A stretch of 21,297 bases of DNA, taken from positions 1 to 21,297 of the IMG/VR virus record IMGVR_UViG_3300028388_001297; one strand, 5' to 3'. Positions 3,640 to 20,704 of the stretch are shown in pieces. A program made the translations under genes and the position numbers. Source of the stretch: a virus. Each line of letters starts with the position of its first letter. The stretch's first letter is position 1. The notes beneath the pieces are model-generated. The model did no database searches and had not been told where the DNA came from. It was given only the letters and a program-made list of their open reading frames with translations.

Positions 3640-3651
3640 GAGGGTCTAATC

Positions 3652-3711
3652 ATGGCAATGGCACGTGGTAAGAAAAAGAAAAATAAAAAGAAAAAGTCTA
3701 GAAGAGGTTGA
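3652..3711 (+). CDS. 19-codon Lys/Arg-rich ORF with an excellent RBS (leader peptide or frameshift N-terminus)
   Basis: The ORF is short: ATG at 3652, TGA at 3709-3711, encoding a peptide composed almost wholly of Lys, Arg, Gly and Asn after MAMARG. It has the best ribosome binding site in the area, AGGAGGG at 3638-3644, 7 nt before the ATG. It overlaps the 121-residue ORF starting at 3665, which is one base ahead (+1 frame) and has no visible RBS of its own. The overlap is a run of A-rich codons. The peptide may be the real N-terminus of the downstream protein joined by a +1 ribosomal frameshift, a translational-coupling leader, or a gene broken by a one-base indel in a homopolymer. I cannot tell these apart here. 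Confidence 0.45.
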   Translation: MAMARGKKKKNKKKKSRRG

Positions 3712-4030
3712 TTGGTGCGACTATTTCCAACGGATTCAAGGCGTTTGCCCTTGGAGTTATCGTGCTTGGAAAAACGGCACCGTAGACATTGTAGAGTGGC
3801 AAGGCAATATAGAAGATTTGGATGGATACCAAGCAAGGGTATACGTACATGTTCATGCTTCGCCAAGACTGTTGAACAAATGGGCTGACAAACTCAATGC
3901 ACAACACAGTGCATATGAGTTTTTATGGAGTCATCCTAGATACAAGGGAGATAGTACTCCCTTGCCTTGCATCATACAACAGGACAGAAACCAATTAAAA
4001 ACTATAAGAGATAAGATAAAGCATAAATAA
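3665..4030 (+). CDS. Conserved-looking hypothetical protein, head region (start uncertain)
   Basis: The open frame runs from a GTG at 3665 to TAA at 4028-4030 (121 codons). The first 12 or so residues are Lys/Arg-rich, then comes a protein-like body: EEVDWCDYFQRIQGVCPWSY, RAWKNGTVDIVEWQG, a Gly-Tyr-Gln-Ala strand (DGYQARVYVHVH), helices (LLNKWADKLNAQHSAYEFLW), and an ending in IIQQDRNQLKTIRDKI. Trp, Cys and Tyr content is high and there is no signal or membrane segment. The GTG has no Shine-Dalgarno; the strong site upstream serves the ATG at 3652 in another frame, so translation probably depends on that ORF. If joined to it by a +1 shift, the product would be about 125 residues. I recall a similar family in marine phages, with no known function. 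Confidence 0.6.
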   Translation: MVRKRKIKRKSLEEVDWCDYFQRIQGVCPWSYRAWKNGTVDIVEWQGNIEDLDGYQARVYVHVHASPRLLNKWADKLNAQHSAYEFLWSHPRYKGDSTPLPCIIQQDRNQLKTIRDKIKHK

Positions 4031-4035
4031 CTGTA
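4024..4035 (+). promoter_or_regulatory. TAAATA-AC-TGTA motif, candidate late promoter before scaffold gene
   Basis: The hexamer TAAATA (4024-4029) overlaps the stop codon of the 121-codon ORF and is followed by AC then TGTA. It is one of eight + strand TAAATA sites, all at gene junctions. It lies 33 nt before the scaffold start at 4069. No -35 box is visible. It resembles the T4 late promoter TATAAATA (here CATAAATA); function is inferred only. Confidence 0.4.
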
Positions 4036-4068
4036 CAAAATTAACTCATTTATGGAGGTATGGTAACG

Positions 4069-4746
4069 ATGGACCAAGAAACCACGGCAGCCACAGAGGT
4101 AACTGACACCCAGGCAGAAACAGTTGAAGTTCAGGCACAAGCAGAAACAAAGACTTATACACAAGAAGAGTTTGATGCAGCAATGGCCAAAATGCGCCAC
4201 GCAGTAACAAACAAAGTGTTAAAGCCTTACCAGGACTTAGGTGATCCAGAAGAACTACGCGAGTTGAAATCCAAGGCAGAAGCGCAACGCCAAGAAGAAC
4301 AACTAAAGCGTGGAGAATTTGAGAAAACACTTCAGGAAATGGCTGCTAAAAAAGACGCTGAGATTCAAAGGCGTGATGCAATTATTAAGGAATACAAGGT
4401 GGATACACCTTTGTTGAATGCGGCAGCAAAATATCGCAGTGTTCAGCCAGAGCAAGTAAAATCATTGTTGAAGAACAATGTGCGTTTGGGTGAAGAAGGC
4501 AATGTTGAAGTCGTAGGTAGTGACGGAAGTGTGCGCTACAATGATGCAGGAGAAGCACTAGGAGTTGACGATTTAGTCAAGGAGTTCTTAGACGCAAATC
4601 CGCACTTTGTGCAAGCAACACCTTCAACTACTAACACAAAGAGTTCAATTAATAATAGCAAAGAGCCGTTAGATATCAGCAAACTGGATATGTCAAATCC
4701 AGAACATAGAAAAGCCTATGCTGAAATGAGAAAACAGCGAGGCTAA
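4069..4746 (+). CDS. Capsid assembly scaffold protein
   Basis: This 225-residue, charged, Glu/Lys/Gln-rich protein lies immediately before the major capsid protein, the standard place for a scaffold. It would fill the prohead during assembly and then leave or be degraded. Residues 1-35 are acidic and disordered-looking (repeated Thr/Glu/Ala/Gln). A long helical coiled-coil-like stretch follows (about 60-125: ELRELKSKAEAQRQEEQLKR and onward to RRDAIIKEYK). The C-terminus is basic (EHRKAYAEMRKQRG), typical of a coat-binding end. I chose the ATG at 4069 rather than 4060 because GGAGG (4054-4058) is 10 nt from 4069 but only 1 nt from 4060. No protease motif is seen. Confidence 0.88.
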   Translation: MDQETTAATEVTDTQAETVEVQAQAETKTYTQEEFDAAMAKMRHAVTNKVLKPYQDLGDPEELRELKSKAEAQRQEEQLKRGEFEKTLQEMAAKKDAEIQRRDAIIKEYKVDTPLLNAAAKYRSVQPEQVKSLLKNNVRLGEEGNVEVVGSDGSVRYNDAGEALGVDDLVKEFLDANPHFVQATPSTTNTKSSINNSKEPLDISKLDMSNPEHRKAYAEMRKQRG

Positions 4747-4773
4747 GCCTAACACTTTAAGGAGACTATTATT

Positions 4774-5628
4774 ATGGCTAACAATACCACAATCAATAGC
4801 GAACTGTTTACTAAACTGCTTGCAGAAGCTCAGTTCGCCATGTATGAGCAAGCAGTTGCTCGTCAAATCGTTACTCCATTTGATGTACCATCAAATGCAG
4901 GTAAAGTACTACAAGTACCAGTATACTCAGCAGTTACAGCTGATGGGTTAACAGAAGGTTCTGCACCTTCAGCAGAAGACACTAACACTACTTCAGTAGA
5001 TGTTACACTTGCTGAAATTGGTACATACTTCCAAGTTACTGACATGCTACGTGACTCAGCTCAGCGTGATGTTATCGCTGACCTAGGCGCACAAGCTGGT
5101 CGTGCTATTGCTGAAAAAATGGACACAGATGTATTCGCTCTATTCAACAGCTTTACTAACTCAGTAGGTACAGAAGACTCAGCAATCACTGTTGACAACA
5201 TCTTTGAAGCTGTTGCTACACTACGCAACAACAAAGTTGTTGGTCCATTGAGTGCTGTTGTATCACCAAGACAAGCTCTTCAGTTGAAGAAAGAACTTGC
5301 TGGTACAGGCGGTGCTAACCTAACTGCAAGCGGTGTTGGTAATGACATCTTACGTGGTTACTACATTGGTACAGTTGCTGGATGTCAAATCTTTGAATCT
5401 AGCTTGGTCAAGCGTGATTTAGACACTGACACTGACACAGAGCTAAACGCAGTTGGCGCAGTATTCAGCCCAACAGCAATTGGACACGCTATGCGTGGTG
5501 GAATCCGCATGGAGACTCAGCGTCAAGCTGCTGCTCGTGCAGAAGACATCATGATGAGTGCTGTATGTGGTCAAGCGATCCTACAGAACGCACACGGTGT
5601 GAAGATTGTTGGTTCTGACTCAGACTAA
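4774..5628 (+). CDS. Major capsid protein (HK97-type fold inferred)
   Basis: This 284-residue protein follows the scaffold gene with an AAGGAGA ribosome binding site and starts at the ATG at 4774. It forms the capsid shell. Sequence signs are an N-terminal helix (ELFTKLLAEAQFAMYEQAVA), the strand-rich segment with GKVLQVPVYSAVTADGLTEG, the EIGTYFQVTDMLRDSA region typical of the backbone helix/P domain, AGRAIAEKMDTDVFALFNSF, and a late hydrophobic strand region (ILRGYYIGTVAGCQIFESS), ending in RMETQRQAAARAEDIMMSAV and a GVKIV strand. This order matches HK97-fold coat proteins of the short scaffold-dependent type. There is no sign of an N-terminal delta domain. A strong terminator follows. Confidence 0.92.
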   Translation: MANNTTINSELFTKLLAEAQFAMYEQAVARQIVTPFDVPSNAGKVLQVPVYSAVTADGLTEGSAPSAEDTNTTSVDVTLAEIGTYFQVTDMLRDSAQRDVIADLGAQAGRAIAEKMDTDVFALFNSFTNSVGTEDSAITVDNIFEAVATLRNNKVVGPLSAVVSPRQALQLKKELAGTGGANLTASGVGNDILRGYYIGTVAGCQIFESSLVKRDLDTDTDTELNAVGAVFSPTAIGHAMRGGIRMETQRQAAARAEDIMMSAVCGQAILQNAHGVKIVGSDSD

Positions 5629-5637
5629 TAACAACAA

Positions 5638-5651
5638 TAAATAGTAGTGTA
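5638..5651 (+). promoter_or_regulatory. TAAATA-GTAG-TGTA motif after capsid gene
   Basis: TAAATA at 5638-5643 is followed by a 4-nt spacer and TGTA. It is fully intergenic, 10 nt after the capsid stop and ahead of the terminator at 5677. If it is a promoter, most transcripts would end at that terminator, so its role is unclear. It is listed because it belongs to the same motif set as 5725 and 17443. Confidence 0.25.
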
Positions 5652-5676
5652 GTTACTGACATTACTACATCACCTG

Positions 5677-5717
5677 AGAGCCCTTAGTTACCAAGAGTTT
5701 CTAAGGGCTCTTTTTTT
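5677..5717 (+). terminator. Rho-independent terminator after major capsid gene
   Basis: There is a perfect 11-bp stem: AGAGCCCTTAG at 5677-5687 pairs with CTAAGGGCTCT at 5701-5711, with a 13-nt loop and a run of seven T at 5711-5717. It lies 49 nt after the capsid stop and would limit transcription from the head genes into the tail genes. Confidence 0.93.
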
Positions 5718-5724
5718 AAAGACA

Positions 5725-5736
5725 TAAATAAGTGTA
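5725..5736 (+). promoter_or_regulatory. TAAATA-AG-TGTA motif, candidate late promoter for tail operon
   Basis: TAAATA (5725-5730) is followed by AG and TGTA, matching the motifs at 4024 and 17443 at the same spacing. It is placed 8 nt after the capsid terminator and 50 nt before the first tail/connector gene, exactly where a new promoter is needed. I see no sigma70 -35 box upstream. The function is inferred. Confidence 0.5.
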
Positions 5737-5755
5737 GCTAGAAGGACTAGCACAC
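5732..5755 (+). other. Hairpin presenting AAGGA, leader of connector gene
   Basis: GTGT-A-GCTAG (5732-5741) pairs with CTAGC-ACAC (5747-5755), leaving one bulged A and a 5-nt loop AAGGA. The nonamer AGAAGGACT inside it (5740-5748) is repeated at 5766-5774, where it forms the ribosome binding site of the next gene. It may be a 5' mRNA stem or a decoy/operator element for translation. Confidence 0.4.
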
Positions 5756-5779
5756 ATTTAATTCAAGAAGGACTTGACT

Positions 5780-6208
5780 ATGGCTTATGCAACTATTGAC
5801 GATCTTTTAATCGTTGAACCTACCATAACAGATTATGGTGTACTTGACTGGGACGCTGAACTAGCGAGGTCAGAATCAGAAATCAACCGTTTACTCAAAG
5901 TTCGCTGGTATTTGCCATATGCAAAATCACAAAACATCACTGCTGAATTTGACAGCACACAGCTAACTGAATCACAGTTTACACAAGCAACCATTTACCA
6001 TGCACTAGCATATCACATTTGTCCTAAACTAACACAGTTTACACCAGATGAGGACAAGTTTACCGTTATGATGAAATACTATGCTGGTAGATTTGAACAT
6101 GAAATGGATCTTGTGCTTAGAGAAGGTGTTTTGTATGATCTTGATGATGATGGCACCGTTGAAAGAAACGAAAAAACACCAGTTGTAAGTTTGAGGTTGC
6201 GTAGATGA
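5780..6208 (+). CDS. Head-tail connector/adaptor-type protein
   Basis: This 142-residue protein is the first gene after the capsid terminator, where siphophages encode the connector rings that join portal and tail. The ATG at 5780 is preferred over the in-frame TTG at 5774 because AAGAAGGA (5765-5772) is correctly spaced (7 nt). The sequence begins MAYATIDDLLIVEPTITDYG, then a helical part with SESEINRLLKVRWYLPYA, later QFTQATIYHALAYHICPKL and a helix-rich region (KFTVMMKYYAGRFEHEMDLVL), ending in a beta-like basic tail. This is the layout of gp6/gp15-type helical adaptors (DUF1320-like), but the family assignment is by pattern only. Its stop overlaps the next start (ATGA). Confidence 0.65.
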   Translation: MAYATIDDLLIVEPTITDYGVLDWDAELARSESEINRLLKVRWYLPYAKSQNITAEFDSTQLTESQFTQATIYHALAYHICPKLTQFTPDEDKFTVMMKYYAGRFEHEMDLVLREGVLYDLDDDGTVERNEKTPVVSLRLRR

Positions 6209-6639
6209 GCCTTAGAGAAGATATAGTCCAACACATAATTGAAAGTTTAAAACAAATGGATTCACCCAAGCCTGTGCTTGTAACACGTGAGCCATTTGAA
6301 GTAGACAAACTAGCAATCACACAATTTCCTGCCATACTAGTAAGTTTTGATACAGAAACAAGAGAGCTGTTAACTATGGGCAGCAATGGTATCAAGAATG
6401 GCACACTCATTTTCAATATTAGAGGTTTTGTAAGAGGCAAAGAACTTGACAAAGCACGTAATGATTTGATCACTGGTATAGAAACAACACTTGAAAGTGA
6501 GCGTTATAGAGAAAAATACACACAAGGTGTAAGAGACAGCCAAATAACTTCTATTGCAGTAGTTGAAAGGTTGCAACCTCTTGCAGAAATACTAATCACG
6601 CTTGAGGTGGGTTACACCTACAGGCGTTTAAACCCATAG
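6205..6639 (+). CDS. Tail terminator / tail completion protein (gpU-type)
   Basis: This 144-residue protein starts in an ATGA overlap with the connector gene. The order connector, terminator, tail tube, chaperone and tape measure is standard. Sequence signs include an N-terminal amphipathic helix (REDIVQHIIESLKQM), the strand pair around PAILVSFDTETREL and GTLIFNIRGFVRGK, a helix carrying the LDKARNDLITGIETTLES region, and a final strand LITLEVGYTYRR. This alpha/beta arrangement is that of the lambda gpU/SPP1 gp17 tail terminators, which cap the tube at its head end. It has no signal, Cys cluster or membrane segment. The alternative is a neck protein. Confidence 0.7.
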   Translation: MSLREDIVQHIIESLKQMDSPKPVLVTREPFEVDKLAITQFPAILVSFDTETRELLTMGSNGIKNGTLIFNIRGFVRGKELDKARNDLITGIETTLESERYREKYTQGVRDSQITSIAVVERLQPLAEILITLEVGYTYRRLNP

Positions 6640-6655
6640 CGTGAGGAGAAAACAA

Positions 6656-6874
6656 ATGGTTACAATGAAAAAAGGTAATAGAGTTAAAATAGTTGACGAA
6701 TCAGAAGTGAAAGGTCAATTAAAAAATGGCTGGGCAGTTGACGCAAATCCTGAAATAAAGGCAGTGCTACGTCCAGTTAAAAAGAATGCGGAGGAAACGC
6801 CCGCCGTAGAAGATAGTTCTTCTGAACAGGGTGACGATGATAAAGCAAACTTAGAGGAGAACGAAAATGAGTAA
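6656..6874 (+). CDS. Small acidic-tailed protein, unknown function
   Basis: This is a 72-residue protein. The ATG at 6656 is preferred to the GTG at 6641 because GAGGAGA (6643-6649) sits 6 nt before it. Residues 1-45 are mildly basic (MVTMKKGNRVKIVDESEVK, then GWAVDANPEIKAVLRPVKK), and the rest is Glu/Asp/Ser-rich and probably disordered (AEETPAVEDSSSEQGDDDKA). It overlaps the tail tube start by 8 nt, so it is translationally coupled. I do not recognise a family. Small proteins at this place in siphophages are sometimes minor tail or assembly factors, but no function can be read from the sequence. Confidence 0.6.
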   Translation: MVTMKKGNRVKIVDESEVKGQLKNGWAVDANPEIKAVLRPVKKNAEETPAVEDSSSEQGDDDKANLEENENE

Positions 6875-7292
6875 TTCAGCTTTAGTAGGTAATGCGGGTG
6901 TCATCTCTGTAGATGGTGTAAACGTAGCAGAGGTCCGCAATTATTCAATTGAAATGACAGCAGACACTATTGAAACAACAACAATGGGTGCATCAAATTC
7001 AGGTAGAACTTATGTAAAAGGTCTATCTACTTTCTCAGGTACAGCTGATGTATACTGGGATGAGAGCCACTTTGACGCAGCCTCTGGTGTTGATCTAGAC
7101 GGTTTAGTTAATGGTGCAGTAGGTGCTAGTTCAGTAGCACTTATTGTGTATCCAGAAGGCGTGAGTGATGGTGCAAACTGGAATGGTAACATTGTTATCA
7201 CTGGTTATTCAATCACAGCGTCAATGGACGGATTGATTGAAGCATCAATCAGCTTCCAAGGTGATGGACAGCTATCTTACACAGCTAGCTAA
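6867..7292 (+). CDS. Major tail tube protein
   Basis: This 141-residue, beta-rich protein is the tail tube subunit that polymerises around the tape measure. Signs are the N-terminal ALVGNAGVISVDGVNVAEVR, the EMTADTIETTTMGASNSGRT loop, and alternating strands (FSGTADVYWD, SSVALIVYPEGVSDGANWNG, IVITGYSITASMDGLIEASI, SFQGDGQLSY). This pattern of short strands, with few charged residues and no Cys, is that of lambda gpV/HK97 gp6-like tube proteins, and the length matches. It sits between the terminator-type gene and the tape measure/chaperone genes. It overlaps the previous gene by 8 nt, and its RBS AGAGGAG lies in that gene's end. A single copy suggests a plain tube without a C-terminal Ig domain. 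Confidence 0.88.
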   Translation: MSNSALVGNAGVISVDGVNVAEVRNYSIEMTADTIETTTMGASNSGRTYVKGLSTFSGTADVYWDESHFDAASGVDLDGLVNGAVGASSVALIVYPEGVSDGANWNGNIVITGYSITASMDGLIEASISFQGDGQLSYTAS

Positions 7293-7301
7293 TAGAGTAA
7301 G

Positions 7302-7592
7302 ATGGCAAGCATAGTTTTCACAGGCAAGGACGTAATCAGTGCAAAGTTAGCTAAGACTTTGCAAATGACTATGGCTCAGGTGGCAGACGAAACAATGAAA
7401 GTTGCAAAGTCTAAAACCCCTGTGAAAACTGGCTACACTAAAACACAATGGAAGAAAAAAGTTACCAAGCAAGACTTTGAAGTGGCAAACAGGGTGCCAT
7501 GGATTGAACGCTTGGAAGCGGGGGCAAGTAAACAGGCACCAAGAGGAATCATTGGGCCTACACTACGTGAAGTAAAAGGAAAAGTAAGATGA
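7302..7592 (+). CDS. HK97 gp10-type neck/tail completion protein
   Basis: This 96-residue basic protein resembles the HK97 gp10/minor-tail-Z group. It has an N-terminal Val-rich strand (MASIVFTGKDVISAKLAKTL), a helix carrying QVADETMKVAKSKTPVKTG, and the diagnostic pattern SKTPVKTGYTKTQWKKKV, followed by VPWIERLEAGASKQAPRGII and a helical, basic C-terminus. In this family the TPVKTG-type motif follows a helix and precedes beta strands. These proteins usually join the neck and lie before the tail terminator; here the gene follows the tail tube, which is unusual. The start at 7302 is 9 nt after the tube stop; its RBS is weak (AGAGTAAG). It ends in an ATGA overlap with the chaperone gene. Confidence 0.7.
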   Translation: MASIVFTGKDVISAKLAKTLQMTMAQVADETMKVAKSKTPVKTGYTKTQWKKKVTKQDFEVANRVPWIERLEAGASKQAPRGIIGPTLREVKGKVR

Positions 7593-7945
7593 CAAACAAA
7601 ACAACAAGTCCTATGGACAAAATTACTGGCCACTTCCGCAACAAGATCTCAGGTGAAATGTCAAGTATCTATGTTGAGGAGTGGGATTTAAAAATCTACT
7701 ACAAGAACTCAAACACATTGCAGGAAGAGTCTAAGCTAATTGAACTTGCACAAAAGGGCAAGACAGTTGAAGCATTAGTTGAAACACTAATCATCAAGGC
7801 TCGCGATGAAGAAGGAAAGAAATTATTTAAACCAGCTGACAAGCCTGTGTTTATGAATGAAGTGGATCCAAGTGTGTTGATTAAAGCAGTTGCAGATATG
7901 AACTCAACGCTTGAAATTAACATGGAGCAAGCGGAAAAAAACTAA
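7589..7945 (+). CDS. Tail assembly chaperone, short form (gpG-type)
   Basis: This 118-residue protein binds the tape measure and guides tube assembly. It is charged and helix-rich (TLQEESKLIELAQKGKTVEA, LVETLIIKARDEEGKKLF) with an N-terminal part DKITGHFRNKISGEMSSIYV. It lies immediately before the frameshift extension and the tape measure, as in lambda G-T-H order. Its last codons are GCG GAA AAA AAC TAA, so the stop codon directly follows the slippery heptamer. Most ribosomes would end here; a fraction would shift back by one base to make the GT form. It overlaps the gp10-type gene by 4 nt (ATGA). Confidence 0.88.
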   Translation: MTNKTTSPMDKITGHFRNKISGEMSSIYVEEWDLKIYYKNSNTLQEESKLIELAQKGKTVEALVETLIIKARDEEGKKLFKPADKPVFMNEVDPSVLIKAVADMNSTLEINMEQAEKN

Positions 7946-8115
7946 GAGGAGATCCAGATCTAATCTTTATGTTTAGACTAGCAAAGGATTTGGGTCTCCG
8001 TGTAGCAGATGTCATGAAAATGACAAACGCAGAGTTTGCTGGATGGGCAGCGTTCTACAAGATAGAACAAGAAGAAGAGAAAAAAGCCATGCAAAGGGCA
8101 AAAGCGAGGAGATAA
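7589..8115 (+). CDS. Tail assembly chaperone, long frameshifted form (gpGT-type)
   Basis: A -1 shift at A AAA AAC (7936-7942) continues from CTA at 7942 to TAA at 8113-8115, adding 57 residues for a total of 175. The added segment reads LRGDPDLIFMFRLAKDLGLR and then ADVMKMTNAEFAGWAAFYK, ending in an acidic then basic tail. That helical motif (LAKDLGLRV...MT..EFAGW.A) is the typical T-domain signature of GT chaperones, which recruits tube subunits. The in-frame continuation is intact and has no internal stop, so it is selected. It ends 3 nt before the tape measure start. The GT/G ratio would be set by slippage efficiency. Confidence 0.9.
7936..7942 (+). other. -1 programmed ribosomal frameshift site
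   Basis: The heptamer A AAA AAC is in register with the gpG-type reading frame and followed at once by TAA in frame 0. It is a textbook slippery sequence; both tRNAs can re-pair after one step back. No experimental data are available, but the frame and its conserved tail function make it very likely used. Confidence 0.93.
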
Positions 8116-8118
8116 GCA

Positions 8119-10479
8119 GTGGACGCAGTAGTAACAATTGGCGGAGTAAGTACTGCACTAAAAGCTGCAACTGTTGCTTTTGCTGGCTTTGTTGCTTCAA
8201 GAGGTTTGCAAGGAATACTTGATGCAACACAACGCATGGAGGGTTTCCAAACACAGCTTACAACCTATCTTGGCAGTCAACAACTAGCAAACGCAGAACT
8301 TGAACGTCTAAGAAAACTAGCAAGAAGTTTACCACAAGATGTTGACGAACTTACACAAGCATTTGTAATTTTCAATAGATTTGGTATTGATACTTCAAAT
8401 GAAAGCATGAGAGCTTTTTCAAATATTGCTGCTTCAAACTCAAAATCAATTATACAATTTGGTGAAGCAGTTGCAGATGCAATGACAGGCGAATTTGAAC
8501 GTCTAAAAGAGTTTGCTATTAAAGTATCAACTGAAAATGGTAAGTTTATTGCTAAAATTGGTGAAGATCAAGTTGCTGTTGCTACAAGCACAAGTGATCT
8601 AGTAGAACAACTAAAAGCACTTGGTGAAGAAGGTGGACGTTTTGGTAATGTAACCGTTGGCGCACTAACAATGGCAATGTCAAACTTCCGTAGCGCTGTG
8701 TTTGAAGTAAGTGCTGCACTAGGTTCAGGAGGACTTGGACTTGCTATTGCAGACACTTTAAATCAGATCACTGCACTTATCACAGAAAATGACAAAGCAG
8801 TAGAAGCATTTGGTGACAAGCTAACCAAAGCATTCTTATATGCTAAAGAAGCAGCTATGTTAGTATTCAATAATATTGAATTGCTAGGTAAAGCACTTGG
8901 TATACTAATTGCAATTAAAGTTGCTACTTGGGTAGCAGGCGCTGCTGCTGCAATGGCAGCATGGGGTGTTACTATAGCAAAAGCACTTGTACCAGCACTT
9001 GCGTTTTTAGCCAAAGCACTGGTTAGAACAGCAGTATTGGCATTGAGACACCCGTTAATTGGTGGTATTGCACTTGTTATTGGTGGCATTGAATACTTCA
9101 CTGGCGCACTTAGTAAATTAGCTGAGAAATTTGGTCTAATTGGTGATGAAAGCGTTATGGATGATCTTGTTAAACAAGCTACAGAGCTAGGTGATACCAT
9201 AACAGGCCCAGTCATTGATGGTATGGATCAATTCAACAGCATTGGCGAGCGTGTTGACGAACAATTTGCTAGTATCAAGGAAAGAGCCAATGAAACAACT
9301 GAAGCTGTAGACGAAGCAACAGCAGCAACTGAACGTGCAAGGTTGCAAGCAGAACAAGCTGCTGCTGCTGAAGCATCAAGAGCTAGTGCAGTACAAGAAA
9401 TTATTGCTCAAAAAACTGAAGAATTGCGCATTTCAGGTCTAAGTCAAGAAGCACAAACTGCATTGAATCTTGAGAAGGAAATTGAACAAAAAACTGGTAA
9501 AGAAATTACTGAAAACGAACGCGAACAATTGAGGTTATTGGCTCAACGTTTAAATCTTCAAAAAAATATAGCTGATATTCAAAATGATATCTACGAAGTT
9601 GCTGGCATGAATGCTAGACAAGAAATTGAAAATATTAAACAAGCTACTGCAACATTTAGACAAGGCATTGAACAAAGATATGGCGAGTTAGCAGATTTCT
9701 ACGAATATACTATAGATGGATTCAAAACAACTCTAGAATTAGAAGAAATGTTGCAAATAGAAAGCTATAGACGTCAAAGGGAAGCAGGAAAAGAATTCCA
9801 AGACTATATGGTAGACATATATGCTGAAGGTATTAGAAGAAAAATGAGACATGATCTACAGTATTCTCAATACCTAAAACAATACCAAGATGGTAATATG
9901 CTTCAACAGCAGCGTGGCGCTGAAGAAGCAGAAAAAATTGTTGCTGACCGCATTGAATTTGAAAAGAAATCAGAATTAGAAAAAGCGCAATTTGCAATAC
10001 AGCAAGGTGCTACAGTATTTGAAGCATTAGGTAGAGAAAACAAAGCAGCGTTTGAAGCAGCCAAAGCGTTTAACATTGCAAATGCCATAATGAACACTTA
10101 CACGGGTGCAACCAAAGCACTTGCTACATATCCGCCACCCTTTAACTTTATTGCTGCTGCGGCAGTTGTTGCTAGTGGTCTTGCACAAGTTGCACAGATT
10201 AGAAGCCAGAGCTACTCAGGTAGACAGCTTGGTGGTCCTGTTATGAATGGCACCAGCTACATTGTTGGTGAGAACGGGCCAGAAATGTTTACTCCAACAA
10301 CCAATGGTAGCATAACTAGAAATAACAATCTACCAGGCGGAGAACCAGTTAACATCAACTTCAACATCACAGCAAATGATGCAACTGGATTTGATGATTT
10401 ATTAATACAGCGTCAAGGCATGATTACACAAATGGTTAGTGATGCAATGACAGAACGTGGACAGAGGAGTATGCTATAA
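8119..10479 (+). CDS. Tail tape measure protein
   Basis: This 786-residue protein is the longest of the tail-shaft genes and directly follows the G/GT chaperones. It sets tail length and is ejected ahead of DNA. At about 0.15 nm per residue it suggests a tail near 120 nm. The GTG start at 8119 has a well-placed GAGGAG (8106-8111, 7 nt). Domains: an N-terminal helical part; hydrophobic segments at about 255-330 (LGKALGILIAIKVATWVAG and a GGIALVIGGIEYF segment); a long coiled-coil stretch (about 385-610) rich in Gln, Glu and Ala; and a typical phage C-terminus (QLGGPVMNGTSYIVGENGPE). I see no lysozyme or peptidase domain. It overlaps the next gene by one base (TAATG). Confidence 0.93.
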   Translation: MDAVVTIGGVSTALKAATVAFAGFVASRGLQGILDATQRMEGFQTQLTTYLGSQQLANAELERLRKLARSLPQDVDELTQAFVIFNRFGIDTSNESMRAFSNIAASNSKSIIQFGEAVADAMTGEFERLKEFAIKVSTENGKFIAKIGEDQVAVATSTSDLVEQLKALGEEGGRFGNVTVGALTMAMSNFRSAVFEVSAALGSGGLGLAIADTLNQITALITENDKAVEAFGDKLTKAFLYAKEAAMLVFNNIELLGKALGILIAIKVATWVAGAAAAMAAWGVTIAKALVPALAFLAKALVRTAVLALRHPLIGGIALVIGGIEYFTGALSKLAEKFGLIGDESVMDDLVKQATELGDTITGPVIDGMDQFNSIGERVDEQFASIKERANETTEAVDEATAATERARLQAEQAAAAEASRASAVQEIIAQKTEELRISGLSQEAQTALNLEKEIEQKTGKEITENEREQLRLLAQRLNLQKNIADIQNDIYEVAGMNARQEIENIKQATATFRQGIEQRYGELADFYEYTIDGFKTTLELEEMLQIESYRRQREAGKEFQDYMVDIYAEGIRRKMRHDLQYSQYLKQYQDGNMLQQQRGAEEAEKIVADRIEFEKKSELEKAQFAIQQGATVFEALGRENKAAFEAAKAFNIANAIMNTYTGATKALATYPPPFNFIAAAAVVASGLAQVAQIRSQSYSGRQLGGPVMNGTSYIVGENGPEMFTPTTNGSITRNNNLPGGEPVNINFNITANDATGFDDLLIQRQGMITQMVSDAMTERGQRSML

Positions 10480-15939: not shown

Positions 15940-15948
15940 GGAGAAGAT

Positions 15949-16671
15949 ATGGCATTACCAACACAAACAGGCGTAGTTAATCCTTTTACAAATAGCATAG
16001 AACCGCAGAACACTGGCAGCTGGACTGACCTTGGATCAACATGGGACGAAAGTCCTAATTGGAATCCAACTGCAACTGAGCTAGTGTGGATATCAGAACC
16101 AATTGTGCTTGACGCAAGCCAAACAATTAATTTGGTTATTGAATCTTCTGCACAAGGCAGCGTAGAGTATGAAGTTTATGCAAGTGACACAGCAGCATTT
16201 GCAGGAGAAGAAACAGTTACTACTATTGCACAAGGCGCAACAGGAGTAAGTGCATTTAGTGGACAGTATTTTTATATTGTAGCAACAGTTACAAATACAA
16301 GCGTATTGCCTTTGCTAGAAGCATTTGATATAACAACAAATCAAAAGACCAGCACAAAACTATCATTAAATGACATAGACACCAGCACACTTGATGGTAC
16401 AGTTAGTGCAAGAGAACTTGATTTTGGCAGAACTGTCAGTGGTGTTAAAAATTTACAGATCACAGTTAAAGAAGTGAGTGACTTTACACTAGAAAGTTAT
16501 GTAACTGATTATCCAACATCAAACACACTGTTGCCAAGAATAGTAAACAAAACAACACCAAGCATTGCACTAGTAGGACTGGACAATGTGCCAAGAGATG
16601 CAGTGGTAGACGTAGTAGCAGAAGTATTGCCTGAGCAGTACATGGCAGGAAATAATCTGCTGATTAGATAA
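15949..16671 (+). CDS. Putative virion/tail protein, unknown function
   Basis: This 240-residue protein starts 9 nt after the tip gene (RBS AGGAGA overlapping the tip stop). The composition is Thr/Ser/Asn/Val-rich with beta-strand patterns (INLVIESSAQGSVEYEVYAS, TAAFAGEETVTTIAQGATG, QYFYIVATVTNTSVLPLLEA) and no Cys. The segment WTDLGSTWDESPNWNPTATE is Trp-rich, like carbohydrate-binding or fibre proteins. The second half continues in strands (LQITVKEVSDFTLESYVTDY). The order after J suggests an accessory tail fibre or tip decoration. No similarity to a known enzyme is visible. I do not recognise the family. Confidence 0.6.
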   Translation: MALPTQTGVVNPFTNSIEPQNTGSWTDLGSTWDESPNWNPTATELVWISEPIVLDASQTINLVIESSAQGSVEYEVYASDTAAFAGEETVTTIAQGATGVSAFSGQYFYIVATVTNTSVLPLLEAFDITTNQKTSTKLSLNDIDTSTLDGTVSARELDFGRTVSGVKNLQITVKEVSDFTLESYVTDYPTSNTLLPRIVNKTTPSIALVGLDNVPRDAVVDVVAEVLPEQYMAGNNLLIR

Positions 16672-16677
16672 AACAAC

Positions 16678-16683
16678 TAAATA
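16678..16683 (+). promoter_or_regulatory. CTAAATA site, candidate late promoter
   Basis: CTAAATA (16677-16683) lies fully between genes, 20 nt before the start of the 157-residue gene, and is followed by TTACAG instead of TGTA. It resembles the T4 late promoter TATAAATA and the CTAAATA form seen in cyanophages. No -35 box is visible. Confidence 0.35.
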
Positions 16684-16702
16684 TTACAGAGGAAGATATA
16701 AC

Positions 16703-17176: not shown

Positions 17177-17178
17177 CA

Positions 17179-17445
17179 ATGAGCGAAGTCAGTAAGCTAG
17201 AATATGAAAATCTAGAAGTCCATGTAGACAAGTGTGCTCTCCGCTACGAACAAATGAATCAAAAGCTAGAAGAAATAGATGTACAATTTGAAAAAATAGA
17301 CCGTCGCTTTGATAGAATAGATGAGCGCATGGATAGAATAGAAACTGACATGAAAAAAGGCAATCGCACAATCATAGTTGCACTTGTAGGTGCTGTTGCT
17401 ACCATTATAGCCGCTTTTGTAGGAGTTGTTGCAGCAGCTATTTAA
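17179..17445 (+). CDS. Coiled-coil plus C-terminal membrane protein (holin-like, XhlA-type candidate)
   Basis: This 88-residue protein has an N-terminal half with heptad repeats from about 22 to 60 (KLEEIDVQFEKIDRRFDRID, then RMDRIETDMKKG) and a C-terminal hydrophobic segment 64-88 (TIIVALVGAVATIIAAFVGV plus VAAAI). Basic residues at 59-63 would face the cytoplasm. This is the architecture of XhlA-type phage membrane proteins that take part in lysis with a holin. The alternatives are a pinholin or a superinfection protein. It sits between structural genes and the Zn-finger-like gene, but no endolysin is seen in the window. It begins 2 nt after the preceding stop, with no clear RBS. Confidence 0.6.
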   Translation: MSEVSKLEYENLEVHVDKCALRYEQMNQKLEEIDVQFEKIDRRFDRIDERMDRIETDMKKGNRTIIVALVGAVATIIAAFVGVVAAAI

Positions 17446-17454
17446 ATAGTTGTA
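17443..17454 (+). promoter_or_regulatory. TAAATA-GT-TGTA motif
   Basis: TAAATA (17443-17448) overlaps the stop codon of the holin-like gene and is followed by GT and TGTA; the final A is the first base of the next start codon (ATG 17454). The same 12-base pattern occurs at 4024 and 5725. Being so close to a start, it could yield a nearly leaderless transcript or could be a translation-linked element. Confidence 0.35.
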
Positions 17455-17759
17455 TGAAGGGCTTACCAAAAGAAATAGAACAACAACTTGAATTTAAAGA
17501 AAAGAAAGGTGAAGAAGCAGCTCCGCCTATTCTTGCAAAAGTACATCATCGTCCTAAACCATGTGAAGATTGCGAACGCATAGTTTGTGATAGACATCAA
17601 ATGTTTCGCTACCATAATTCAGTAAAACACTATCCGCATTGGCGTGTTACATGTCGTTCATGCAATCTAGTGTGTAATCCTCACAGTGGTAGATACGATC
17701 TAACTCCACAACAAGCACAAGTCATTTTTAATGAACTCTATTTGAAGAAAACTAAATAA
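17454..17759 (+). CDS. Small Cys-rich zinc-finger-like protein
   Basis: This 101-residue protein carries C37, C40, C45, C67, C70 and C74, including CxxC pairs (CEDC, CRSC) and several His (HHRPKP, DRHQMFRYHNSVKHYPHW). This is a likely zinc ribbon or treble-clef core; an HNH-like role is possible but an HNH signature is not clear. The N-terminus is charged (MKGLPKEIEQQLEFKEKK), and the C-terminus is helical (QQAQVIFNELYLKK). It starts 8 nt after the previous stop, and no good RBS is visible; the preceding TAAATA motif ends at its start codon. I recall similar small CEDC-type proteins in marine phages, without function. It would bind nucleic acid or act in transcription, as a guess. Confidence 0.6.
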   Translation: MKGLPKEIEQQLEFKEKKGEEAAPPILAKVHHRPKPCEDCERIVCDRHQMFRYHNSVKHYPHWRVTCRSCNLVCNPHSGRYDLTPQQAQVIFNELYLKKTK

Positions 17760-17764
17760 TTGTG
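17753..17764 (+). promoter_or_regulatory. TAAATA-AT-TGTG motif
   Basis: CTAAATA (17752-17758) overlaps the stop of the Cys-rich gene and runs into ATTGTG. It is the last member of the motif set in the structural region and lies just at the start of the palindromic block 17759-17861. It matches the TAAATAnnTGTA pattern except for the last base. Confidence 0.3.
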
Positions 17765-17838
17765 TGCAATTTAAACATTGTTTATTGCCATTTACAATGT
17801 TCCGTCATCATGACGGAAACTCCGTCATTGCACACAAT
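17759..17838 (+). repeat. Nested inverted repeats (multi-stem palindromic block)
   Basis: The outer arms are ATTGTGTGCAAT (17759-17770) and ATTGCACACAAT (17827-17838), a perfect 12-bp inverted repeat. Inside it are a stem AACATTGT (17774-17781) with ACAATGTT (17794-17801), and a 19-base palindrome TTCCGTCAT-C-ATGACGGAA (17800-17818). A further copy CTCCGTCAT occurs at 17820-17828. The right outer arm overlaps the start of the following terminator stem. Folded, it could form a three-way junction. It may be a protein operator, an attenuator, or an RNA element. Confidence 0.75.
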
Positions 17839-17868
17839 GCCCACACACTGTTGTGGGCATTTTCTTTT
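17836..17868 (+). terminator. Rho-independent terminator at end of structural region
   Basis: AATGCCCACA (17836-17845) pairs with TGTGGGCATT (17852-17861), a 10-bp stem with a 6-nt loop, followed by TTTTCTTTT. It closes the structural gene cluster and precedes the sigma70-controlled region. Confidence 0.85.
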
Positions 17869-17909
17869 CCAAAATACTCCAAAAAAAGCCTATTTTAACA
17901 CTGTTTTGC

Positions 17910-17938
17910 TTGACTTTACATAAGTAATTGTGTATAAT
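17910..17938 (+). promoter_or_regulatory. Sigma70 promoter (TTGACT-17-TATAAT)
   Basis: The -35 box TTGACT (17910-17915), a 17-nt spacer and the perfect -10 box TATAAT (17933-17938) precede the 83-codon gene, with AAGGAGA as its ribosome binding site. This is the first clear sigma70 promoter in the window; none is seen in the structural genes upstream. Confidence 0.9.
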
Positions 17939-17967
17939 AAAATACATATTAACAAGGAGAAAACAAA

Positions 17968-18219
17968 ATGGCACAATACAAACTATCATATTATGTAGCA
18001 CTACCTGGACATAATGATAAAATAGAAAAAATTGCAAATACAGAAATAGAATTAGCAGCACATATATTAGATATGGAGCGTGATGTAGGAGCAATTTGTC
18101 ACGGTGTTGAAATTGAGCAAGGCGAATTTACTGAGAATCGTCGTTCAAACAATAAATTAGCATTACAACAAATCCAGCGTTGGACAAAGGTATTAGAAAA
18201 CGCAATACACATAAATTAA
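17968..18219 (+). CDS. Small protein of unknown function, sigma70-transcribed
   Basis: This 83-residue protein has an RBS AAGGAGA (17955-17961) and a strong promoter just upstream. The sequence starts MAQYKLSYYVALPGHNDKIE and continues helical and acidic (IELAAHILDMERDVGAICHG, VEIEQGEFTENRRSNNKLAL). The HDN/IELAAHI part has a pattern reminiscent of small phage adaptor proteins, but no family is recognised. A single Cys and no membrane segment are seen. Early expression is suggested by the promoter. It is the first gene of the nonstructural region and is followed 53 nt later by the HNH-like gene. Confidence 0.6.
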   Translation: MAQYKLSYYVALPGHNDKIEKIANTEIELAAHILDMERDVGAICHGVEIEQGEFTENRRSNNKLALQQIQRWTKVLENAIHIN

Positions 18220-18225
18220 CAAACA

Positions 18226-18264
18226 CTCCTAGGCAAGAGTTAAAACTGCCCTATATTTTAGGAG
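18226..18264 (+). promoter_or_regulatory. Possible RBS-sequestering stem before HNH-like gene
   Basis: CTCCTA (18226-18231) is complementary to TAGGAG (18259-18264), which contains the ribosome binding site of the HNH-like gene at 18273. The pairing would hide the site. It is a 6-bp stem with a 27-nt loop, so it is a suggestion only. Confidence 0.3.
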
Positions 18265-18272
18265 AACGTAAA

Positions 18273-18947
18273 ATGGCACGAGGACGTAAAACACACCCAC
18301 TAGCATTGGCAAAGAAGAAATATGCCAGACACAAGGCGCAAGCCAAATACAGAAACATTGAATTCAAGTTTAGTTTTGATGAGTGGTATCAATGGTGGCT
18401 AAACAATGGTGTTGATAAAAACACAGATACTTTTAACAAAGCAGACACTGGCAGATTGTGCATGTGTAGACATGGCGATGTAGGCGCATATGAACCCACT
18501 AATGTGTACTGTGACACAATGGTTAAAAACGCACAACACTTGCATGAAAACAAACCATCACAAAAGCTGATATATCGCTATGCTGCAGATCTAGTAACAT
18601 TAACAGAACTGTGTGATAGACTGGGCTACACCCCAGCAAGACGTGAACACTGGCATCACACCACATATGACTACTATAGGAACACTGAAGCAAGACAGTT
18701 GACCAATAGATTTAGACAAACATATGGCACACTGCGCACACGCACTGAATATCACAGCCCACGAGATCGCACGTGGTATCCTACCGTAAAAGCAGCGTGT
18801 GCTGCAAGCAAAATGGATCCAGGCACATACAAAAAACGCCTACGTTTGGAGTATGAAGGTTATGAGAGTCGTGTTACACGCACACTTGAAGATTATATAC
18901 GTGCAAACACACGTTATCCTGACCCAATCATACCAAAAGACATCTAA
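18273..18947 (+). CDS. HNH-fold-like protein with C-terminal helix-turn-helix
   Basis: This 224-residue protein starts at the ATG at 18273, which has a correctly placed AGGAGA; the longer frame from 18180 overlaps the previous gene and lacks an RBS. It has a basic N-terminus with conserved-looking features (KKKYARHKAQAKYRNIEF, SFDEWYQWWL), then the segment RHGDVGAYEPTNVYCDTMVK-N that resembles the RxxDxGxYxxxNVxxxT...N core of phage HNH nucleases. A clear His-Asn-His catalytic set is not visible (H68 and H92 are candidates). The C-terminus (WYPTVKAACAASKMDPGTYK) is a helix-turn-helix of the intron/homing-endonuclease (NUMOD1-like) type. Interpretation: a homing-endonuclease-like or DNA-binding protein, possibly inactive. 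Confidence 0.6.
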   Translation: MARGRKTHPLALAKKKYARHKAQAKYRNIEFKFSFDEWYQWWLNNGVDKNTDTFNKADTGRLCMCRHGDVGAYEPTNVYCDTMVKNAQHLHENKPSQKLIYRYAADLVTLTELCDRLGYTPARREHWHHTTYDYYRNTEARQLTNRFRQTYGTLRTRTEYHSPRDRTWYPTVKAACAASKMDPGTYKKRLRLEYEGYESRVTRTLEDYIRANTRYPDPIIPKDI

Positions 18948-18957
18948 AATTCGCAAT

Positions 18958-18995
18958 CGCCATTGTAGAGGCCGTGCATAGCCCTGCAAATGGCG
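18958..18995 (+). other. Stable bulged hairpin, no U-tract
   Basis: CGCCATT (18958-18964) pairs with AATGGCG (18989-18995); the stem continues with GTAG/CTGC-type pairs (18965-18968 with 18984-18987, one U-G) and GGC/GCC (18970-18972 with 18981-18983), with two single-base bulges and an 8-nt loop. No T run follows, so it is not a standard terminator. It may protect the mRNA 3' end or be a processing site. Confidence 0.5.
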
Positions 18996-19007
18996 TTAAA
19001 TTAATGG

Positions 19008-19036
19008 TTGACAAGAACAGAACATATATGTATAAT
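19008..19036 (+). promoter_or_regulatory. Sigma70 promoter (TTGACA-17-TATAAT)
   Basis: The consensus -35 TTGACA (19008-19013) and consensus -10 TATAAT (19031-19036) are separated by 17 nt. This is as strong a sigma70 promoter as can be written. The start would be near 19043, ahead of the 115-codon gene; the transcript could run into the structured region at 19412. Confidence 0.95.
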
Positions 19037-19063
19037 ATAATACAATGACTAACGGAGAAAAAA

Positions 19064-19411
19064 ATGTCAAATAACCAACGAGATTTAACGCAAAAGCAGA
19101 GTGTTCAAACACTTGAGCAAGAGCAACTTGTTGGCTATTGGTTAAAACGCAAAGGCATCACAAGAAAGGCACTTGAAACCCATCCACACATAGACGATGT
19201 TATACTACTAATGAAATATCGCGACGGTATGTGGAACTACCTAAACAACAGCGAACGTGCTGTGTGGGCAGCATACTGGGGTTACACCTACAACAAACGC
19301 AAGGCACTCAAGAAAAAGAGCCTAAGCAAACTAGAACAGATAACTAATACAGTAATAGCAAGGCAAGAAACAAGGCAATCAGCAATAAACAAGATCAAGG
19401 CATTAAGATAG
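19064..19411 (+). CDS. Small basic protein of unknown function
   Basis: This 115-residue protein is driven by a consensus sigma70 promoter, with GGAGAAA as the ribosome site. The sequence is helical and rich in Lys, Arg and Gln (MSNNQRDLTQKQSVQTLEQE, VGYWLKRKGITRKALETHPH, then DGMWNYLNNSERAVWAAYWG). Two aromatic-rich clusters precede a basic helical C-terminus (RKALKKKSLSKLEQITNTVI). There is no Cys, no membrane segment and no known motif. The basic and Trp-containing character suggests DNA or RNA binding, perhaps an early host-takeover or replication accessory protein, but this is only an inference. The gene is followed by a non-coding region of 471 bases. Confidence 0.65.
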   Translation: MSNNQRDLTQKQSVQTLEQEQLVGYWLKRKGITRKALETHPHIDDVILLMKYRDGMWNYLNNSERAVWAAYWGYTYNKRKALKKKSLSKLEQITNTVIARQETRQSAINKIKALR

Positions 19412-19589
19412 AACCCTTATTCAAAATCCTCTGCGAATATGACGGCTAAATCAGAGGACGCTACCTAAGTTGCATCTAGGCTTAGGATAATAGTGGTGCC
19501 GCCCCAGCCCGCAAGGGTGCCAGTTACACATAGTCAAACTTCTGGTAATGGGTAGATGTCGCTTGTGAAGACTTCAAGTCAACAAGTTG

Positions 19590-19665
19590 AGCGATGGTAA
19601 ATGTAATGGTATTGCCAAGCACTAAGGTGCTTTTTTTAAGTGATATCATTACATTTGCCGTCGCT
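19590..19665 (+). repeat. 26-pair RNA-type hairpin enclosing a terminator
   Basis: Positions 19590-19615 pair with 19640-19665 with no mismatches if G-U is allowed; the five non-Watson-Crick pairs (19595/19660, 19598/19657, 19609/19646, 19613/19642, 19614/19641) are all G-U on the + strand RNA and would be A-C on the other strand. Six more pairs extend it beyond a 6-nt bulge (19584-19589 with 19672-19677). The pattern points to an RNA function on the + strand. Confidence 0.75.
19617..19637 (+). terminator. Rho-independent-type terminator inside the long hairpin loop
   Basis: AAGCAC (19617-19622) pairs with GTGCTT (19627-19632) around a TAAG loop and is followed by a seven-T run (19631-19637). 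It lies in the loop of the 26-pair hairpin, so stopping here would prevent the right arm from being made. Confidence 0.7.
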
Positions 19666-19734
19666 TGGCTCCAACTTCAAGTAACAGTCAATTACTTCTA
19701 TCAAACAAATGACTTGTTTAGTTTGAGCGATAGC

Positions 19735-19835
19735 AATATGAATATCTACTTAGTGAATATGAGCGCAAGCGAATATGAAGTAAGAGATATGAATAAGACT
19801 AACGCAGTTAGGCTTTGATATACACCTATATGAAT
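19735..19835 (+). repeat. AATATGA/ATATGAAT short repeats (iteron-like)
   Basis: ATATGAAT occurs at 19736-19743, 19787-19794 and 19828-19835; GAATATGA at 19755-19762 and 19771-19778, with another copy at 19435-19442. The copies are all on the + strand within an AT-rich stretch just before the 73-codon gene. They could be protein-binding iterons of an origin, but no replication gene is near. Confidence 0.45.
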
Positions 19836-19882
19836 ACCTCTTAGAGATCTAATAGATAAGTAATACAAACGGAGATAGCTCT

Positions 19883-20104
19883 ATGTTAATTGAATACTTT
19901 GCTAGTGAACAAGAAGATGAACGTCTTTACCAGTTGATTGAACGATTCAATATCAAGATCACAGAGGCATTTAACCCACAAGACCGCTACTATGTGTTGG
20001 AAACACATGATGATAGAATAGTAAGTCTCATGCTGTTGTGTGGCATAGAAGCATACATCTCAACAACAGGTGAAAAAATAGTGGGTGCCACTGCACGGCT
20101 ATAA
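19883..20104 (+). CDS. Small protein of unknown function
   Basis: This 73-residue protein has GGAGA (19871-19875) 7 nt before the ATG at 19883. The sequence is acidic at the start (MLIEYFASEQEDERLYQLIE), then mixed (RFNIKITEAFNPQDRYYVLE, HDDRIVSLMLLCGIEAYIST) with a Gly/Lys end. It has one Cys and an alternating hydrophobic pattern of two strands around ISTTGEKIVGATA. It looks like a small folded alpha/beta protein. I do not recognise a family. It lies just before terS; the 9-base gap holds the TATAAATA-type site. It may be an accessory packaging or regulatory protein, by position only. Confidence 0.6.
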   Translation: MLIEYFASEQEDERLYQLIERFNIKITEAFNPQDRYYVLETHDDRIVSLMLLCGIEAYISTTGEKIVGATARL

Positions 20105-20107
20105 ATA
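20100..20107 (+). promoter_or_regulatory. TATAAATA site (T4 late promoter-like) before terS
   Basis: The exact T4-type late promoter octamer TATAAATA lies at 20100-20107, overlapping the previous stop codon and 5 nt before the terS ATG (20113). No Shine-Dalgarno is seen for terS. If this acts as a late promoter, the start would lie about at the ATG, suggesting a leaderless or near-leaderless transcript. Confidence 0.4.
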
Positions 20108-20112
20108 TACAC

Positions 20113-20568
20113 ATGCAACAAGAACCAAAGCGAACAGGACCCAAACCCAAAGAACTAGTAGAATCTACTATACTAGGACTTGAAGTGGGTCGCGGCGAAA
20201 ACAAACAAGTAGTACCACCTGATCAAGTTGAAGAACTTGCTAGTATTGGTTGCACTGATAGAGAAATTGCCACATTCTTTGGAGTAAAAGAAGACACTCT
20301 TAGACGCAACTTTGCGGACAATCTCGCAAAAGGTAGACAATTTCAGAAAACAAGACTGAGAAGGCTTATGTTCCGTGCAGCTGAAAACCTCAATCCAGCC
20401 ATACTGATATTCCTTTCCAAGAACATACTTGGATATACAGATCAACCTCTACAAACTGAAGCAAATGCTCCTTTACCATGGAGTGATGACGAAGATGAAA
20501 CTGTTGAATCAAGTGAAACAACGGAAGAAAAACTTCAACAAGAGGTTGACAACCCAGAAGATTTGTAG
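20113..20568 (+). CDS. terS: Terminase small subunit
   Basis: This 151-residue protein recognises viral DNA and loads TerL for packaging. The N-terminus is basic (KRTGPKPKELVESTILGLEV); a helix-turn-helix occupies about residues 46-73 (GCTDREIATFFGVKEDTLRR) and is followed by a helical segment AENLNPAILIFLSKNILGYT, which is the family's typical K.LGY/W pattern before an acidic tail (LPWSDDEDETVESSETTEEK). The composition and order are typical for TerS of siphophages. TerL is not next to it but lies about 20 kb upstream in this window, suggesting a circularly permuted map or a rearranged genome. No RBS is clear; TATAAATA is just upstream. The -35 of the following promoter lies within its last codons. 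Confidence 0.88.
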   Translation: MQQEPKRTGPKPKELVESTILGLEVGRGENKQVVPPDQVEELASIGCTDREIATFFGVKEDTLRRNFADNLAKGRQFQKTRLRRLMFRAAENLNPAILIFLSKNILGYTDQPLQTEANAPLPWSDDEDETVESSETTEEKLQQEVDNPEDL

Positions 20569-20574
20569 TATAGT
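20546..20574 (+). promoter_or_regulatory. Sigma70 promoter (TTGACA-17-TATAGT) inside terS end
   Basis: TTGACA (20546-20551), a 17-nt spacer and TATAGT (20569-20574) span the end of terS. The start would be about 20581. Its core matches the promoter at 20676 at TTGACAA and TGTAGTATA, suggesting duplicated promoters. Confidence 0.85.
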
Positions 20575-20580
20575 ATACAC

Positions 20581-20666
20581 ACACTAAAGACGCTTAGTGT
20601 ACTATTTCATCTCAACCCAAACCCAACAGCATGCCATTTTAACTCCTGGTGCTGTTGGGTTTTTTT
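20581..20666 (+). ncRNA. Candidate small RNA (about 86 nt)
   Basis: It lies between a sigma70 promoter (20546-20574) and a strong terminator, and no ORF of any length with an RBS lies between them. The predicted RNA starts with a hairpin ACACTAA/TTAGTGT (20581-20587, 20594-20600), has a single-stranded middle (about 20601-20618) and ends in the terminator stem. This is the typical layout of a bacterial sRNA. Confidence 0.65.
20619..20666 (+). terminator. Strong rho-independent terminator
   Basis: AAACCCAACAGCA (20619-20631) pairs perfectly with TGCTGTTGGGTTT (20650-20662), a 13-bp stem with an 18-nt loop, followed by a T run through 20666. It ends both terS transcripts and the candidate sRNA. 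Confidence 0.95.
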
Positions 20667-20675
20667 ATGTGTTGG

Positions 20676-20704
20676 TTGACAAACGATAAATAATGTAGTA
20701 TACT
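20676..20704 (+). promoter_or_regulatory. Sigma70 promoter (TTGACA-17-TATACT)
   Basis: The consensus -35 TTGACA (20676-20681), a 17-nt spacer and TATACT (20699-20704) lie just after the terminator. The spacer contains TAAATA (20687-20692) followed by ATGTA. The RBS AAGGAG and the ATG at 20727 follow. Confidence 0.92.

Follow-up and report, generated by a model that had tools for sequence, protein, structure and literature searches.

The first 21,297 bases of IMG/VR virus record IMGVR_UViG_3300028388_001297, the stretch of DNA analysed here and called the window below, carry the virion genes of a siphovirus-type phage, and the question that this locus raises is how those genes are transcribed. 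The record itself is an incomplete contig of 25,626 bases. Within the window are encoded the terminase large subunit (TerL), portal, scaffold, major capsid, tail, tape measure and J-like tail proteins, followed by a small-gene region and the terminase small subunit (TerS); fibre-region genes lie past the window end, within the last 4.3 kb of the contig, and all called genes are on the + strand. A first-pass annotation had drawn attention to the hexamer TAAATA at gene junctions and had read it as a possible T4-like late promoter. As set out below, junction TAAATA in this window and in a family of related phages very probably is a functional late promoter, and the explanation that we consider best overall, and moderately probable, is that the family consists of capsid-encoding satellites whose late genes would be transcribed by a polymerase with the gp55-type factor of a T4-like phage that infects the same cell.

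TAAATA is confined to gene junctions

A full count of the + strand of the window returned TAAATA at exactly the eight positions that had been read by eye (4024, 5638, 5725, 16678, 17443, 17753, 20102 and 20687), and two copies were found on the minus strand, at 7824 and 17439. The copies at 4024, 17443, 17753 and 20102 touch the stop codon of the gene before them, and the remaining four lie between genes. Beyond the window the contig has further + strand copies at 21701, over a stop, and 22441, intergenic, and all ten therefore stand at junctions or stops. The earlier assertion that no copy lies inside a gene holds for the whole contig, with no + strand TAAATA in its 23.6 kb of coding sequence, and the accompanying rough estimate of ten or more expected copies compares with 8.7 from shuffling of synonymous codons and 10.6 from permutation of codons; none of 400 shuffles was as low as the count observed. 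On the minus strand, coding sequence of the contig holds 3 copies against about 11.5 expected. When hexamers were ranked by their enrichment at junctions TAAATA came first, above the ribosome-binding words.

The motif is conserved before orthologous late genes

Relatives were drawn from IMG/VR, where capsid proteins are 58-95% identical and TerL identity falls to about 50% and lower; the data are metagenomic contigs and sequence statistics, with mechanical gene calling in the relatives. The site before the scaffold gene (4024-4029, + strand; gene start at 4060), from which transcription would be expected to begin near 4035, has an orthologous counterpart in most of them, in that 55 of 58 non-redundant loci have TAAATA at most 120 nucleotides (nt) upstream of the scaffold gene, with scaffold protein identity as low as 40%. 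It is missing from three loci: G004, a relative with replication genes of its own; the GC-poor L013; and L127, the close relative L125 of which does have it.

Downstream of its capsid gene the window carries an intrinsic terminator (5678-5717, + strand), recognised from sequence and fold and conserved in relatives, and directly after it a TAAATA (5725-5730, + strand) that would restart transcription of the neck-tail genes. Where the post-capsid gap of relatives measures at least 70 nt, TAAATA is present in 16 of 17 loci, usually with one of the copies just after a terminator, and it is present in none of the 19 loci with a short gap. Rather than being absent from the junctions of relatives, the motif is conserved before orthologous late genes, and its positions at the scaffold, neck-tail and TerS sites match the location of late (virion) genes.

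The extent of the motif proved smaller than had been proposed. The sequence TAAATAnnTGTA does occur exactly at 4024, 5725 and 17443, with a deviation in the last base at 17753, and the copy at 20102 does read TATAAATA, all as the first-pass annotation had said. However, over 191 unique junction sites of the relatives the nnTGTA extension is found at the proposed spacing in 3, and TAAATAnnTGTA was rejected as an extended motif. What is conserved over these sites is TAAATA and a preceding A or C (position -12, counted from the start site discussed below: A in 61% and C in 24%, one or the other in 85% of sites). Position -13, a T in the T4 box, is variable, and in a logo covering 14 to 2 positions upstream of the core we saw no conserved position beyond AT richness, the -35 distance lying outside the logo. 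Sigma70 scans at the head-tail TAAATA sites yielded no consensus -35/-10 pairs.

TAAATA is avoided on both strands of coding sequence

In 11 family genomes, with 242 kb of coding sequence in total, TAAATA was counted 29 times on the sense strand against 108.6 expected (z -9.2) and 26 times on the antisense strand against 123.3 expected (z -10.2), and this avoidance is the strongest among 15 isomeric hexamers. The same test detected no avoidance in genes of G004 or of the pelagiphage HTVC111P. Given that both strands are avoided, the pattern suggests a promoter whose stray copies are harmful, and not an RNA element or a consequence of stop codons.

Distances to start codons would place the core in the T4 register

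If TAAATA directs initiation at a fixed distance, this should be visible in the spacing of the genes that follow. Counted from the T of TAAATA, distances to the next open-frame ATG peak at 10-11 nt (18 cases; P ~1e-8 against isomeric hexamers), with 5 cases at 12-18 nt and a broad group at 19 nt or more. A fixed start near 11 nt would produce such a peak followed by a gap, since genes would be either leaderless or far enough away to leave room for a ribosome-binding site. Two genes of the window show the 11-nt spacing. The core of TATAAATA (20102-20107, + strand) lies over a stop and its first base is 11 nt from the ATG of TerS (20113-20568, + strand), an arrangement also present in the relative G001; likewise, the copy at 17443-17448 (+ strand) covers the stop of gene 17179 and begins 11 nt before the ATG of gene 17454. 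Both genes would be leaderless.

The start site that we infer from these distances places TAAATA at -11 to -6, which is the register of T4, where the late box TATAAATA occupies -13 to -6 (PMC1524935); position -13 is also variable in other T4-like phages (PMC1524935). HTVC008M, a T4-like phage of Pelagibacter that encodes gp55, has 12 genes in which the T of TAAATA precedes the ATG by exactly 11 nt, and behind its capsid gene the order is terminator, then TAAATA, as in the family. Leaderless late mRNAs are thereby suggested for these twelve HTVC008M genes as well (L152, L153, L192-L194). In T4 there are three loose cases of the 11-nt type, none with the full box; the parts of S-CAM3 and S-SKS1 gave no leaderless spacing, and 50-kb parts of Mosig and Melnitz gave one case each. 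An attempt to name a helper clade from the leaderless signature was dropped, as the signature is present in HTVC008M and rare or absent in T4, S-CAM3, S-SKS1 and the Mosig and Melnitz parts.

The late-promoter reading of the first-pass annotation thus stands in its main part, in that the motif is specific to junctions and to strand, conserved, avoided in genes and, relative to the predicted start, in the T4 register, as in HTVC008M; what did not stand is the nnTGTA extension and, as described below, the notion of a self-contained system. The tests of distance, avoidance and conservation have loci in common and are only partly independent of each other. With a T4-type core in a T4-type register, recognition of the family promoters by a gp55-type factor appears probable.

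Host-type promoters belong to the small genes

The earlier statement that no sigma70 promoter is found in the structural genes was borne out: the window has four near-perfect ones, all on the + strand of the small-gene region and none in the head-tail genes. They are TTGACT-17-TATAAT before small gene 17968 (17910-17938), the perfect TTGACA-17-TATAAT before small gene 19064 (19008-19036), TTGACA-17-TATAGT at the end of TerS (20546-20574) and TTGACA-17-TATACT before gene 20727 (20676-20704). Behind such promoters lie the small accessory genes (17968-19411, + strand), which are poorly conserved in the family. Perfect or near-perfect TTGACA-N17-TATAAT stands before small genes not only in the window but in G001, G003, G006, G007, G014 and DSL-LC06. 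In a few genomes, sequences that agree with the sigma70 consensus at 11 of 12 positions also lie within long genes; their spacers are 16 or 18 nt and they are chance-like.

The promoter before gene 20727 is composite, with TAAATA in its spacer (20687-20692, + strand), and the hexamer occupies the equal spacer position in G001 (4781-4809). The inferred late module, comprising TerL, head, tail and J-like genes, extends from 53 to 16671 on the + strand.

No recognisable late factor, replication genes or lysis genes

A search for a gp55- or sigma-like gene had been proposed as a check on the first-pass annotation. A gp55 hidden Markov model (HMM) built from eight phages matched the HTVC008M control at 2e-74 and nothing significantly in any family contig, and a single-query gp55 search of the family was likewise negative. 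With no gp55-like gene found in the contig or its relatives, the idea of a self-contained late system was not sustained.

Several relatives are complete and allow absences to be read. Completeness follows from end overlaps in G003 (241 bp), G006 (174 bp), G007 (87 bp) and G014 (133 bp), from a gene split across the ends, without overlap, in G001 and G010, and from a circular record in DSL-LC06; these genomes measure 27.6-31.8 kb. Profiles of DNA polymerases A and B, DnaB and tyrosine integrase had no match in the complete relatives, with G004, HTVC008M or control genomes positive, and PHROG and Pfam scans of the non-structural proteins of relatives found no polymerase, primase, helicase, RNA polymerase or endolysin. 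What these scans did match were endonucleases, methyltransferases, an XhlA-like protein and similar. One family member has a weak Sigma70_r1_1 match (8.5e-4). Long unmatched proteins belong to tail-fibre, structural or unknown families, three being without a match, and the genes common across the family are mostly structural, packaging-linked or HNH-like nuclease genes. The relative G004, by comparison, has a DNA polymerase A match and no junction TAAATA. A joint scan of G004 and DSL-LC06 gave helicase, single-strand binding and endolysin matches (25 of 52 families listed, the matching member being unspecified); the gene content of DSL-LC06 rests mainly on its GenBank annotation, part of its proteins having been scanned alone. 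That the complete relatives have neither a gp55 homologue nor recognisable replication genes points to a factor supplied in trans, and we consider it moderately likely that a T4-like helper supplies it.

Other possible traces of a helper were followed and set aside. HNH-like proteins are encoded at 18273-18947 in the window, at 5406-5786 in G001 and at 18329-18856 in G010, and those of G001 and G010 match weakly to phrog_4592, the profile of the T4 sigma70 decoy family. A decoy like T4 Srd was not used in the argument, the profile matches being weak, limited to two genomes and within HNH-like proteins. Gene 18273 was also rejected as a link to a helper; its matches are weak (29-44%), those listed are in T4-sized phages, and the IMG/VR scan was empty. 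Gene g3 (2712-3422), whose matches in annotated phages are mostly in cyanophages, was rejected as a sign of exchange with T4-like phages, as it occurs in many IMG/VR contigs without the tested T4-type marker genes. A scan of GTDB genomes for host assignment turned up 55 pattern stretches and no relatives.

Weighing the explanations

In the satellite explanation that we favour, the family would be siphovirus-type phages of about 28-32 kb acting as capsid-encoding satellites. Host sigma70 polymerase would transcribe a few small early or accessory genes, and the head, tail and packaging genes would stand behind TAAATA promoters, with the core at -11 to -6 and without a -35 element; a co-infecting T4-like phage would lend host RNA polymerase its gp55-type late factor for reading these promoters, and would also replicate the satellite DNA and lyse the cell. 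Several points weigh against it. Many small proteins are unannotated, so that a sigma factor or initiator could be hidden among them. G004 is the sole fully available contrast relative with replication genes. The leaderless peak is shared by HTVC008M and not by T4, S-CAM3, S-SKS1 or the Mosig and Melnitz parts, and thus singles out no helper clade. Finally, one TAAATA copy (20687) sits within a sigma70 promoter spacer.

The rival that survives best, in our judgement an unlikely one, is a self-sufficient phage with a small, highly diverged sigma-like or promoter-specificity protein of its own that brings host polymerase to TAAATA, the DNA being replicated by host enzymes. Most of the small proteins have no family match, and diverged sigma factors can evade profiles, T4 gp55 itself matching no Pfam model. 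However, the promoters are found throughout the family, whereas few small genes from the window and its nearest complete relatives are shared that widely, the HMM does detect a gp55-type protein in the control, and replication and endolysin genes are missing along with the factor.

It could alternatively be proposed that a host-encoded alternative sigma factor reads TAAATA and that phage replication depends on the host, and the negative search for a phage factor speaks for this, but we regard it as distinctly improbable. The core has T at -11 and A at -6, as in T4 late promoters, whereas TATAAT of sigma70 has A at -11 and T at -7, and TAAATA promoters show no -35 element. Furthermore, the motif stays constant despite large sequence divergence in the family, and perfect host-type promoters exist but are confined to small genes.

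A divided genome, with the late factor and replication genes on a second, separately assembled segment, would account for the missing functions, and metagenomic assembly cannot link segments; against it, several genomes prove to be closed and include both TerS and TerL, and no segmented tailed phage is known to us, and we give this rival very little credence. Least tenable is the proposal that TAAATA is no promoter at all and merely follows from TAA stops, from the AT-richness of junctions or from some signal at the RNA level. Several copies do overlap TAA stops, junctions are AT-rich and a first-order model expects 2.6 noncoding copies in the contig, but neither stops nor RNA signals would be expected to produce antisense avoidance in genes, a sharp distance peak at 10-11 nt, the conservation of orthologous sites while their flanks diverge, or the lack of junction TAAATA in G004.

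Returning to the satellite explanation, we incline, by a small margin, towards widespread tailed satellites that parasitise T4-like phages in aquatic bacteria, with virion genes of their own under T4-late-type promoters, partly leaderless, and with late transcription, replication and lysis borrowed. If true, this lineage would in effect be the bacterial equivalent of virophages, satellites that encode a capsid would be common in natural waters, and dependence on T4-like phages could be read from promoters. Searches of unclassified siphovirus-type contigs could use as a signature TAAATA either 10-11 nt or 19 nt and more ahead of start codons, in genomes without gp55. The leaderless geometry could also help to find the late promoters of HTVC008M-like pelagimyophages; an earlier late-promoter prediction in pelagimyophages was unsuccessful (PMC7029224).

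Other features of the window

The TAAATA just behind the capsid gene (5638-5643, + strand) would start a short RNA at 5649, upstream of the terminator described above. This candidate late small RNA of 69 nt (5649-5717, + strand; fold z -5.6) has a 5' hairpin with the loop CTGACAT and then the terminator, and TAAATA lies exactly 18 nt before the CTGACAT loop hairpin in seven genomes. The stem bases differ between genomes, being GTAAG/CTTAC in L100 and GTAGT/ACTAC in the window. A comparable arrangement occurs at 17753-17870, where the TAAATA over the stop of gene 17454 (17753-17758, + strand) leads into sequence that folds strongly (z -6.5) and has inverted arms of 12 nt, ATTGTGTGCAAT, and then into a terminator. 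The remaining copy (16678-16683, + strand) precedes gene 16703.

Within the tail operon there is a GNAT-type acetyltransferase gene (11648-12127) that many relatives retain. The 470 nt at 19412-19882 hold no convincing gene; an inverted repeat of 23 nt (19590-19612 / 19643-19665) lies there alongside short direct repeats, and an Rfam search of the stretch gave no match. An HNH-like gene starting at 21152 (21152-21297 in the window) loses its frame at an N, contig base 21298, probably through an assembly or masking flaw.

Comparison with known systems

The closest functional parallel is with the T4 late promoters, which are served by the gp55/gp33/gp45 RNA polymerase in T4 and in Kyanoviridae such as HTVC008M. 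The family has the same TAAATA core before late genes, likewise without a -35 element and with a start that would again fall 11 nt after the T, but in siphovirus-type genomes with no detectable gp55, and the T at -13 is not conserved.

By homology, the family belongs with DSL-LC06, of the proposed 'Nanhuiviridae' (PMC10611076), a circular genome of 29.8 kb that shares the collinear TerL-portal-scaffold-major capsid protein (MCP)-tail block (TerL 51%, MCP 41%) and in which we counted TAAATA at 7 of 9 junctions. It was described as an ordinary phage, with replication proteins said to be present in all genomes of its group (PMC10611076); contrary to that statement, its GenBank gene list has no replication protein. 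The Pelagibacter phages HTVC202P, HTVC111P, HTVC112P and HTVC026P are also related (TerL about 50%, MCP 35-38%, similar gene order, about 32 kb), but these are isolated phages with a GC content of about 31% and with TAAATA scattered through their coding sequence, and DnaD-type genes are found in HTVC202P, HTVC111P and HTVC026P.

Among satellites, P4, PICI and PLE share with our proposal the dependence on a helper phage; they use the helper's capsid, however, and typically integrate, whereas members of the family encode head, tail and terminase themselves, tyrosine integrase profiles do not match them, and no relative turned up in the GTDB genomes scanned. In the literature covered, which excluded most subscription journals and preprints, we met no description of satellites that use T4-like late promoters. 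A precedent is provided by Mulch and Flayer, satellites of Streptomyces phages that have encapsidation genes and lack key replication genes (PMC10690885), much as the complete genomes of the family have their own capsid and packaging genes and, by homology, no key replication genes. The word 'promoter' does not occur in the text of that paper (PMC10690885). The helpers of Mulch and Flayer have been isolated and are BE-cluster siphoviruses (PMC10690885), whereas the helper proposed here is T4-like and the dependence on it is suggested by promoters and gene content.

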